Origin: Nymphaea colorata
Taxonomy: Eukaryota > Streptophyta > Magnoliopsida > Nymphaeales > Nymphaeaceae
NCBI RefSeq assembly: GCF_008831285.2
Contig: NC_045139.1
Location: forward strand, 32,151,706 to 32,215,705
DNA: 64,000 nucleotides
Direction: 5' to 3'
The position numbers and the translations under genes are program-made. Of this stretch, positions 39,201 through 57,639 are shown piece after piece (the first letter of the stretch is position 1; the number at the start of each line of letters is the position of its first letter). The notes beneath the pieces were generated by a model that did not search any database, was not told the DNA's origin, and saw nothing but the letters and a program-made list of their open reading frames with translations.

Positions 39201-40993
39201 ATACTTGTTGCATTTGAGAGCAGTCAGGGCAGAGAAGCAATCTGGAGATAATGTTAGTACAGATTCTTTTACTCAGTTCAAGCATGTGCTTCTTCCCATC
39301 ACCGATCGAAATCCATACCTGTCTGAAGCAACAAGACAGGTAATAGCCATTTCAAACACCCAAAACTTTGTTATAATCCACTGTATATTTCATGATTTAA
39401 TAATTATAAATTTCATGATTTAATAGTTACAATGCAATAAAAGATGGTGGAGTATCATACCAATCTTGTTCTTTAATTTGGGATGTGTAATCACTGTAAG
39501 ATCTACATCTAATACTGCAAAGAGAAGGAGCCTAGACTATGTATTTTTTTTTTTATTACAAAGTATGTCTGTTTGTAAAGTATAACAAAATGTAGGTTTG
39601 TGACAGGCTGTATCAGGACCACTCATATGTTGTATCACAAGGTTCACATCATTGGGTTGGGTTTGGTTTGGGCTAGCTGCTTGGTTGGATGTTTGAAGTC
39701 CCAACCCAGAAACATATTTAGAGAATCCTAGCTTGAATACTGGGTAGCCAGGTCAGGTTATTGTCTGGTTGGGTCATGCTTCAGCACTTTGCTGAGATAT
39801 TACATGTATAATTTCATTTAAAGTGCTTGCAGAAAACAAACATTTTTGTTATGATTTTTTATTCCCGTTGACACTGGAGAAGGGTGTTTGAGTCCCATAC
39901 CTGATTCATATTTGTGAGCTGAAGCATCTTACATGCATATGCAGAACTGCTTACAAGGTAATTTTTCTTCCAGGTTGGGAATCCAAGCTGATTATTTAAT
40001 CTAGTGCTTAGATTGAAAGTGCAACGTTGTGTTTGAAAGACTTTGCCCTGTAGCTGAAATTGGTTTTATTCAGGTCTACACATTTTTTAAAGAATTTGAT
40101 GTATGCATCCGGCTTGGATAGGCACCTGGTCTCAGATCTGACCCATCGCCAATCCTACTAGAAGACCCTGTAAGAAAGATATAAAAGTGTATTCACAAAA
40201 TTATATTCTGGCGTTGATTTGCCCATGCCAGAGCTTGCATGCTATTGTTAATTTGCTGGTATCTACACGTCAGCGGCTTTGCTTTTTTTATGTGGCCTCA
40301 AGCTGCTTTTAAGGAGTCTCTGCTCTAAAAACTGCACTGAGTGCATGATGTTGACCATCTTTGCTATTTTTTCATTCTAAAGCCTGGTGTTTCTTTTCTT
40401 GAAATTTGTCGATGCTGTAATTTAATACCTGTAGTTGCACTTTCAGGCTGCAGCAACTACTACAGCTTTAGCCAAGAAGTTTGGGGCAGATATTACTGTT
40501 GTTGGTATGTTTATCCTTTTATAAACTTCCTAGAATCTCTGCTAGTCCTTTACTTTTGGAGTGGGTGGTTGTTTTCGAAAATTCCGACTGCTGAGTCTCA
40601 AGGAATATAAAACTTGGTCTCTCTTGCAGTTATTGATGAAAAGGAGAAGGAGACAATACCAGAGTATGAAACTCAACTGTCTAGCATTCGGTGGCATCTT
40701 TCTGAAGGTATTACTATGGTTTGCTTTAGTAGCAGATTATTGTTTCAGAAAGCCTCATGTCTTAATTGAGATAATGGTAGACATCATTTCTTGAATTAGG
40801 TGGGTTTCAAGAGTTTGGGTTGCTGGAGCGGCTTGGAGAAGGCAAGAAGACAACTGCAATTATTGGCGAGGTTGCTGATGACTTAAATCTTGATTTAGTA
40901 GTTCTCAGCATGGAATCTATCCACTCGAAACATGTGGATGGGAATCTATTGGCTGAATTTATTCCTTGTCCTGTCTTGCTTTTGCCACTGTAG
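36279..40993 (+). CDS. Universal-stress-protein-fold protein, probably plastid-targeted
   Basis: Five exons: 36279-36462, 39224-39339, 40447-40504, 40630-40707, 40800-40993; 209 aa. All borders are GT-AG with matching phases. Residues 1 to about 65 are rich in Ser, Arg and Ala with few acidic residues, as in a chloroplast transit peptide. Residues 80-209 form a UspA-like domain: FKHVLLPITDRN (strand 1), ALAKKFGADITVVVID, AIIGEVADDLNLDLVVLSM, and the C-terminal strand CPVLLLPL. The usual nucleotide-binding pattern G-x2-G-x9-G-S/T before that strand is absent (SMESIHSKHVDGNLLAEF), so ATP binding is doubtful. Intron 1 is 2.8 kb. The precise role is unknown. A decayed partial copy lies at 50309-50518. 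Confidence 0.88.
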
Positions 40994-41154
40994 TTGGTAT
41001 TCTTGATGCCATTATAATTTATAGCATGATGAGAAACACCCTTTGGAAACATAAGAGATGACGAGCTTTTTTGTGGAGTTATTGAGGAAGTTGTCTTTGA
41101 GTTGTGTAAACTTTTCAGCTCTTGTATATATTTTTTATCCATTGCAAACTAGGC

Positions 41155-41345
41155 TCGTCTTAAGCTAGTTAGACAAGTCGGCTTAAAACTCCGACTTTTT
41201 CTGGGGTTCGATACTTGTGGGGTGTGCCTCCCTTAAGGCTGACGCGGTTTATTAGGAAGAATTTCTTAGTGGGCAAGGATGGCTTTCTGTGTTGTGTGGA
41301 ATCTTTAGAACAAGAGGGGTAGTGCACTCCTCTAGGAGTTTGTTT
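41155..41345 (+). mobile_element. SINE-like element downstream of the stress-protein gene
   Basis: Box-A-like TAGTTAGACAAGTCGG lies at about 41166 and box-B-like GGGGTTCGATACTTG at about 41203, with the spacing of a tRNA-derived Pol III promoter. It lies in a part of block A that is missing from block B. The 3' end is approximate. Confidence 0.5.
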
Positions 41346-54957: not shown

Positions 54958-56896
54958 AATCGGCATCAACCGCTGACTCCACCACCCAACAAGCTGATCA
55001 GCCTAAACAAACAAAACCAAACAGAGAACACAGACCAAACTTAAGCGCAATGCTTCATAACTCTTCCACTTCTACCCAAGGAACAGCAAGAGAGAGAGAG
55101 AGAGAGAGAGAGAGAGAGATTAACCAGAGGTCTCTGAAGCAACGTCTTTCTCTATGATTGGTACCAGAAAGTTTTACCAAGACACAAACAAATGTCAGAA
55201 AAAAGAAGAGGGGATATGATTTCAGACTGAAAGAAAAAAGGAAAAGGTGGGGGGAATGATTTTCTTACCCAAGTATCATGCAGACAGGCAGGGGCTGCTT
55301 CTTTTTTTCTCTATGCTGGTGATCGCTTCAGTTCAAGCACGCACACAAGCTGCTCTGTCACTATCACAGAGAGCTGTGAGCAGGAGGCAACCTGCCGCAC
55401 ACTGCGGAAGCATGCTCCTCCCCACTTTTGAAGCAAACCCTTCTCCCTTTTTAGATGATGCTCAACAACCAACCCAAATAGAGGAGGCAGCGGCCATCGT
55501 CTAATTGCTCCACAGACAGATACCCATTGATCATCATGCCATCATATTGGGCGCTGAAGTCGCTCTGTAATCCTTCTTTCTTCCTTCTGCGTGTGTTTTT
55601 TTCTGGAAAATTTTCTGAACCGCTCCTGAAGCTTTTAGTGGTAACGCAAAGGACGTTTGTGATTTTGATGTTTATTAAAGACGCACTTTCATTTTGTTAT
55701 AGTTGATGAAAAAAGTGCAAGAGTTCTTACTTGAATGGTAGGGAGATTTTTTTTTTTTTTAACAAGTTTTTTGATCAATACATAATGAAAAAAAATGGTT
55801 TGCTTAATTGTAAAGAACTTTTCACGAAATTTTTATTGGGTAATCTTGAACTTTGTGAAATTTCAGGGGATCATTAGAGAGAGAGAGAGATTAATGAACA
55901 AGAGCTGTTGAATTTCTAGAAAGCACCAAGGTTGGAGAGATGTAAAAAAAGAAACAAACATGAACTTTGCAAGAATGTATTGTCACTTGTGTCTCATGAA
56001 CTCATCTTAGTGTTTAATTAAGCAAGTTAACCACTCAAAATTCAAAAACCTAAGTACATTTTTCTACTCAAGTGTTCTTTTTCTATCATCAATGAAACGT
56101 TAGGTGCATTTCGAAATTTTATTTTCTTGAATTTTAGTTCATTTTTATCATCGAAATTTATAAGGACGCACTTAATGTGGGCAGTGTGTACATTTTGAAG
56201 TTTTGGAGATGAAAATCACTTGCTTCTAATGTTCAACTATAGTGAAAGAAGGAAAAAAATGTAGTGAAAAAATGAAAGATATTCAAGCAAGGTAATTTAT
56301 GATGACTTAGGAGTTGGTAAGACATGCTTATGGTGTGAAAGAAGATATAAATTTGTTTTCATACATATAAATTTATTAACATATATTCATGAATCATATT
56401 GAACAGTAAGATATACTACGATTATGTGAAGGGAATCAAACAAGGTTTCATAGTTGGTAGCCATACATGTGTATTCTTATTGAATTTGGATTTTCTATTA
56501 TCAGATCTGGGATTGGAGTTGGAGTTGGACCTGAATTTTGAAAACTGAATTTGGATCCCACAAGCATTAGTATCTGACTATTATGTGTTGAAAGTGGCCA
56601 TAGCTAAAAATCCGTGATGACCACCCAACGGGTAAGTTACAGTATGCATAGATAGATCCATGTCCATAGATCGGATCCAGATTGGTTATCCAATAAAGCA
56701 CATTAAGTTAGTGATATGGGAAAAGTTTTCAAATCTGAATAGAAAACTAAAACGGATCTGAATAGACAATGAAGCTGCCCTGTATTAGATGTCAGCCCTA
56801 AACTCAAATCTGTCTAGACAAGAAAGATTTCAATACAAATCAGATCAAGCTGAGTAAAATAAGATTTGAATACAAATTAGATCCAGGTCTTCTATA
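54958..56896. other. 5' flank of AMS copy 2, intergenic
   Basis: Matches 47114-49300 of block A. The first 750 bp are the best conserved and are the likely promoter and leader of AMS copy 2. No other gene is seen. Confidence 0.5.
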
Positions 56897-57348
56897 TAGG
56901 GCTACACAATGAGCTGAGCCAACTCGAGCTCGACTCGAACTCGCTCGAAAAAACTTGGCTCGTGCTCAACTCGTTTATAAACGAGCCGAGTTTCGAGTTC
57001 CAGCTTACAAAGATACTCGAAACGATAAATGAATTGAGTTCGAGTTTCAAGAACTCGACTCATTTATACTCGACTCGACTCGTAAACTGGTACTCCATAT
57101 AAATATTGTCAAAACCGGTTTCACAAGTTACACGAGTTAATGCATAAAGAAGTTGAATTCGAGCTCGATTTTGTGTAGTCGAGTCGAGCTCGAGCTCGAG
57201 CTTGCTATAAGGAGCTCGATTCGAGTTCGAGCCAAGCTCAAGCTCGAGCTCGAGTCGAGTTTGAGTAGAGTTCGAACTCGAGTTTTTTTAGCCAAATTGA
57301 GTTCGAGCTGGCCAAGCTTGGGCTCAACTTGGCTCGTGTGCAGCCCTA
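56897..57348. mobile_element. hAT-like non-autonomous element, 452 bp
   Basis: It starts TAGGGCTACACAATGAGC and ends GGCTCGTGTGCAGCCCTA, which are inverted repeats. A perfect 8-bp target duplication, CTTCTATA, lies at 56889-56896 and 57349-57356. The interior consists of CGAGCTCGAGTTCGAGT-type palindromic repeats with no coding frame of note. The matching place in block A (about 49320-49345) lacks the element, so it inserted after the duplication. Confidence 0.9.
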
Positions 57349-57639
57349 CTTCTATACAACTTGCAGGTAAGACCATGAATATACAACCGTGATTTCACAT
57401 GTACTTACAGGATCATAAGCCACCAGGACATGATATCAGTTTTAAACAATCAGATTCAAATCCATATCCAACTGGTAGGACTTGAGGAAGCCCGGGTCTG
57501 ATCTGGATCTGATCCACAAGGTTGGTCTTTAGTTGGATTTTCATGAACATCAACTCTCTATCACTATCCCTATTAGTTTGAATCCTAAACATCAAAAGGG
57601 CATTTCTATATAAACAAATAAAAGTTAAGAGAAGCATAG

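Follow-up and report, generated by a model that had tools for sequence, protein, structure and literature searches.

AMS is a master switch for pollen-wall formation. The protein occupies the middle of the tapetum network responsible for the pollen wall, and its Arabidopsis mutants are male sterile (PMC10709546); in pepper and Arabidopsis the gene has eight exons and seven introns, the Arabidopsis gene being At2g16910 (PMC5983743), and At2g16920 is UBC23/PFU2 (PMC4641371). Two further tapetal bHLH genes of Arabidopsis, bHLH010 (AT2G31220) and bHLH091 (AT2G31210), are likewise born of duplication and carry consecutive locus numbers (PMC10875983); judging from these numbers they are probably a tandem pair. 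Unlike the genes described below, however, they are not AMS but homologues of rice EAT1 that heterodimerize with DYT1, and they are described as similar and possibly redundant (PMC10875983), whereas the AMS pair reported here is strongly unequal. No report of an AMS tandem pair was recognized in the literature searched, the coverage of which was partial and consisted in part of the best 10 of 28 matches. (A tandem bHLH pair of sacred lotus with a Ka/Ks of 0.453 (PMC6573809; the value here is 0.46 by NG86) was considered and dropped because its gene numbers were not tied to AMS.)

The window (the whole 64,000-nucleotide stretch of Nymphaea colorata DNA that was analysed) shares with the tapetal bHLH genes of the AMS (At2g16910)/TDR type the order of the domains, the exon–intron layout and conserved residues of one copy, referred to as copy A, and a neighbour of the UBE2O/UBC23 type. 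It differs from them in that there are two tandem copies; in copy B, exons 2 and 3 are joined, the N-terminal domain is shorter and residues of the bHLH have changed. When the window was compared with itself, 14 collinear matches in direct order, running from 40343~50221 to 49515~57515, defined two blocks:

40343..49515, no strand assigned, duplicated block A: about 9.2 kb, with AMS copy A, about 2.4 kb of 5′ flank and about 2.3 kb of 3′ flank, collinear with block B
50221..57515, no strand assigned, duplicated block B: about 7.3 kb, with AMS copy B, about 2.6 kb of 5′ flank and about 0.9 kb of 3′ flank, collinear with block A

The matches comprise 29–2,275 columns each at 72–90% identity (some are short, and a few have small overlaps), and they span exons, introns, 5′ flank and 3′ flank. 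Block A and block B shared 5,975 alignment columns on the plus strand with the low-complexity filter on, as opposed to 0, 0, 192, 0 and 0 columns when block A was compared under the same settings with five control segments (1–8000, 8001–16000, 24000–32000, 32001–40000 and 58001–64000, respectively). Note that the segment 16001–24000 was left out of the controls; it gave microsatellite matches in a self-comparison run without the low-complexity filter. The tandem duplication of an AMS-type gene in the window is thus real. The original prediction of a segmental duplication with landmarks shared in direct order is borne out, and the collinearity reaches outside the coding exons into introns and both flanks; the single span it had given, 40343..57518, is corrected to blocks with edges at 40343–49515 and 50221–57515. 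The 705 bp between the blocks (49516–50220) had no convincing match within 57516–60500 (best E 0.26), and because this stretch lacks a counterpart there the exact duplication junction is lost. A tblastn search of the window with the copy A protein (E up to 1) matched solely inside the two genes and revealed no third AMS copy. With regard to a mobile-element origin of the segments found only in A or only in B, their edges showed no clear target-site repeats.

Synonymous divergence between the copies (dS) is 0.18–0.25, depending on the method. Across 2,303 aligned noncoding bases the divergence amounts to 0.229, which is a minimum value because solely stretches at least 60% alike were counted. 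A noncoding divergence of about 20% lies far above ordinary allelic divergence. These values of dS, together with a noncoding divergence of 0.23, make allelic or assembly duplicates unlikely. We regard it as extremely improbable that the pair is an assembly artefact made of haplotigs or mis-joined alleles: the alignable noncoding stretches differ by about 20%, and both blocks lie in one continuous stretch and carry different indels.

Each block contains a predicted AMS-type gene on the minus strand, as had been claimed:

42670..47113, minus strand, coding span of AMS copy A: 8 exons, 1,779 nt, 592 aa, a spliced model without internal stop
47113–47007, 46053–45859, 45758–45680, 45595–45527, 44469–43699, 43466–43173, 43017–42847 and 42762–42670, minus strand, exons of copy A
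51165..54957, minus strand, coding span of AMS copy B: 7 exons, 1,722 nt, 573 aa, a spliced model without internal stop
54957–54851, 54297–54060 (fused exons 2 and 3), 53942–53874, 52957–52208, 51966–51673, 51517–51347 and 51257–51165, minus strand, exons of copy B
43693..43698, minus strand, GC-type 5′ splice site of intron 5 of copy A (AAG/GCAAGT)

Exons were located with a provisional version of the Arabidopsis AMS protein sequence and splice sites were set by base-level alignment of A and B; both models are predictions from DNA alone. Each of them has start and stop codons, splice sites that are plausible and a joined frame free of interruption. One intron per copy, inside the bHLH, starts with GC and not GT; its equivalent in B, just below 52208, reads AGG/GCAAGT.

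The Pfam families bHLH-MYC_N, HLH and ACT-like matched copy A at 83.4, 43.2 and 47.6 bits, in AMS domain order, and copy B at 56.7, 35.9 and 39.6 bits; all of these scores are above the cut-offs. The bHLH-MYC_N match of copy B is split into two stretches and is 12 codons short. Copy A has the eight exons and seven introns of AMS (in a model guided by the provisional Arabidopsis protein sequence, AtAMS), and copy B, with intron 2 deleted, has seven exons. Outside the middle region, copy A aligns well with the provisional AtAMS and rice TDR (OsTDR) sequences, in an alignment rather than a subfamily tree. The neighbouring gene points the same way:

25531..32207, plus strand, UBE2O-like E2 ubiquitin-conjugating enzyme gene (UBC23/PFU2 type): Pfam UBE2O SH3-type domains and UQ_con in separate frames, ends approximate

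This gene and the AMS pair stand tail-to-tail, some 8 kb separating the gene from block A. (A frame at 32480–32878 matched no family in a Pfam search.) Since At2g16910 and At2g16920 are consecutive numbers, AMS would lie beside UBC23/PFU2 in Arabidopsis, the same neighbourhood as in the window; it holds for both copies, with the E2 assigned by its domains and not by phylogeny. The assignment of the genes to the AMS type thus stands, on three AMS domains in order, the exon layout of copy A and the UBE2O-like neighbour. We read copy A as a conserved AMS orthologue, and copy B as a frame-preserved, fast-evolving AMS paralogue; the collinearity makes it a derived paralogue of A.

Copy B is structurally not identical to A because a 136-bp deletion took intron 2 and the exon edges on either side of it:

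45750..45885, minus strand, 136 bp present in A and absent from B, made up of the whole of intron 2 (100 nt) with 27 nt from exon 2 and 9 nt from exon 3, as defined by the alignment, the exon coordinates and the list of gaps

The deletion fused exons 2 and 3 in frame, at a net cost of 12 codons, and falls within bHLH-MYC_N. The other coding length differences of B are a gain of 36 nt, in an internal repeat around a WLPENLP motif, and a loss of 57 nt. At the start of helix 2, R410 of A is G in B, so that a basic residue is lost; the position is K or R in the five PDB alignments displayed (MYC2, two Max and two MITF sequences), the best 5 of 13 matches. Further changes in the bHLH of B include N392T and G415A. 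Against MYC2, copy B nevertheless scores as high as A (56.0 bits with a 67-aa query from B and 55.8 with the A protein, queries that differ in length), because its E379 and E389 (A numbering) are MYC2-like; E379 of B is also present in the provisional rice TDR sequence. The MYC2-like residues and the equal MYC2 score suggest that DNA binding by B may not be lost. At the N-terminal end, both copies weakly match EGL1 (PDB 7fdl), B slightly better (E 0.0046) than A (E 0.009). One matching stretch of A begins at 101, inside the residues lost in B, and runs to 165; the corresponding stretch of B begins at residue 119.

The two proteins are 78% identical, and a Ka/Ks comparison of the coding sequences, which the original prediction had proposed, gave an omega of 0.46–0.68 over 561 codon pairs (0.46 by NG86). 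By region, omega is lowest in the bHLH (0.24–0.30), which argues that this stretch is partly constrained, and highest in the middle of the protein (0.59–1.21). The differences were polarized with AtAMS and OsTDR, both as provisional sequences rather than database records, and the polarization depends on both. With AtAMS as outgroup, 6 differences were derived in A and 42 in B (P 1e-7; 7 and 42 in a four-sequence alignment), with 74 of the 122 differing sites failing to polarize; 3 and 28 were derived when the poorly alignable middle region was left out. Rice TDR gave 8 and 31 (P 3e-4). At sites where these two outgroups agree, a single residue is derived in A and 22 in B (P 6e-6), and among the 200 columns in which AtAMS equals OsTDR, A keeps 143 and B 115. 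Moreover, B scores lower than A in all three Pfam domains, a comparison free of the provisional outgroups. Splitting dN by the observed ratios yields an omega of about 0.04–0.28 for A and 0.72–1.30 for B; these figures come from arithmetic and not from the fitting of a branch model, and the asymmetry may be overstated in them, since the polarized sites are solely those at which one copy matches the outgroup. The copies had been treated as equivalent, a view that does not hold: A looks conserved and B has evolved at several times its rate, with 7 exons, the 136-bp deletion and 22 derived residues versus 1 in A.

The 5′ flanks include a stretch that is unusually alike between the copies:

47505..47715, minus strand, upstream stretch about 0.4–0.6 kb before the ATG of A: 191 of 211 positions identical to the counterpart in B (55305–55515)

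The likeness, in a stretch chosen after scanning, has a P of 5e-5 when set against the noncoding divergence of 19.6% and 0.17 when set against the coding divergence. Candidate explanations were considered for it. As a structured RNA it fared poorly: in copy A, the one to which these searches were applied, a single Rfam match in 47000–48000 fell far below the cut-off, and the fold had a z of −1.7, with 8 of 200 shuffles equally stable. Among the three codon phases the 20 differences divide as 10, 4 and 6, and both strands have an open frame through much of the stretch; a small coding exon is not favoured as a reading.

If both copies were complete AMS genes retained for the sake of dosage or redundancy, open frames in both and co-duplicated flanks, the well conserved upstream stretch among them, would be in keeping with it. 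The 1:22 asymmetry at conserved sites, the N-terminal deletion in B and the helix-2 change R410G speak against this explanation, and we consider it very unlikely. Of the alternatives originally offered, dosage change or functional divergence, the former is therefore not favoured, and the latter is the better half, because of the 1:22 rates, the lower Pfam scores, the shortened N-terminal domain and the lost basic residue of helix 2.

A fast-evolving copy might also be one that is decaying. Coding length differences between A and B are in frame in 3 of 3 cases (−36, +36 and −57 nt), and of the 33 noncoding indels 26 have a length that three does not divide (in the indel listing behind the latter count, the filter picked up 2 of the 3 coding events). 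In a neutral simulation at 0.115 substitutions per site, the average per copy was 7.8 stops and 10.8 frameshifts; with the depth roughly halved (0.06 substitutions per site), taken singly, the absence of a stop had a P of 0.013 and the absence of a frameshift a P of 0.004, and a fully intact gene was found in 0 of 5,000 runs. The simulation takes the B branch as half of the divergence and intron indels as the unconstrained baseline. A frame kept in the face of such simulated decay, together with an omega of 0.24–0.30 in the bHLH, argues that the frame of B was probably held by selection for most of its history.

In a rival reading, B would be a young pseudogene, released recently after long selection, in which inactivating mutations have yet to appear. 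The estimated omega of B (about 0.72–1.30), its lost conserved residues, its 12-codon deletion, a GC splice site at which the exon base is altered and Pfam scores that are lower in 3 of 3 domains are what such a gene might display. However, B has neither a stop nor a frameshift, the splice dinucleotides of its remaining introns are the same as in A, its three coding length differences are in frame, the low omega of the bHLH is at odds with free decay, and no intact gene survived in the simulations even when only about half of the branch was taken as neutral. We hold this explanation to be unlikely, if by no means negligible.

Duplication, gene structures, frame preservation and unequal rates (the last with the provisional outgroups) are computed results. 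The reading that we think somewhat likely to be correct is that a bHLH gene of the AMS/TDR type was copied, along with its promoter and 3′ flank, in an old tandem segmental duplication, that A is the AMS orthologue, and that B is a frame-kept variant, likely a modulator or sub-functional partner of AMS. Copy A would presumably carry out the tapetal job of AMS, given tapetal expression. Copy B has retained an open, spliceable frame, probably under some selection, while its amino-acid constraint was relaxed or changed; part of the N-terminal interaction domain is lost and the DNA-facing side of the bHLH altered, with most of the HLH and ACT-like dimerization surfaces persisting. Its product is most likely an AMS variant still able to dimerize, with weaker or different binding to DNA or to N-terminal partners. 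AMS dimerizes both with itself and with other proteins, in a network where bHLH partners compete, and HLH proteins without DNA binding act as negative partners (PMC10875983); these properties suggest a modulating or sub-functional role for B. A stronger version, in which selection has made B an antagonist or a re-tuned partner of AMS, with dimerization kept, the N-terminal domain clipped and DNA contact altered, appears quite unlikely to us; if true, the tapetum programme of this lineage would have a brake or second mode that is built in and co-regulated.

B is probably either acquiring a modified role or gradually degenerating. Tandem duplicates commonly go on to evolve unequally, and in general terms this locus is an ordinary example of such asymmetry. 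A retained and strongly unequal pair is also a natural test of which parts of AMS are needed, because B alters the N-terminal domain and the start of the DNA-facing helix with the frame kept.

Minor features of the models may be noted. Copy A has an alternative acceptor, located 6 nt upstream of exon 7, whose use would lengthen the coding sequence by two codons, an option that B lacks, and copy B has an additional in-frame ATG three codons upstream of the start used.

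The two AMS-type bHLH genes of the tandem duplication, copies A and B, each carry a GC-type 5′ splice site in the intron that interrupts the coding sequence of the bHLH domain:

43693-43698, minus strand: GC-type 5′ splice site of the bHLH intron of copy A (AAG/GCAAGT)
just below 52208, minus strand: GC-type 5′ splice site of the bHLH intron of copy B (AGG/GCAAGT)

Because this splice site is common to both copies, it is probably older than the AMS duplication.

Comparison of the copies also revealed a stretch approximately 0.4-0.6 kb 5′ of the AMS start codon in each (47505-47715 in copy A and 55305-55515 in copy B) in which 191 of 211 positions are identical. 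The likeness between copies here is about that of the exons, yet the stretch is apparently noncoding; it is a candidate promoter or 5′-leader element.

The window has long microsatellites of CT and AT at more than one place (4620-4710, 20081-22262 and 46877-47001), and in copy A one of them starts a few bases past the splice donor of exon 1. A peroxidase-like gene (about 19819-21679, plus strand) lies in pieces separated by long repeats of CT and AT; the pieces match the Pfam peroxidase model at 21245-21679 (90.7 bits) and, under the cut-off, at 19819-20094 (19.4 bits). A match to U2 spliceosomal RNA (18960-19122, minus strand; 57.6 bits) exceeded the Rfam threshold.
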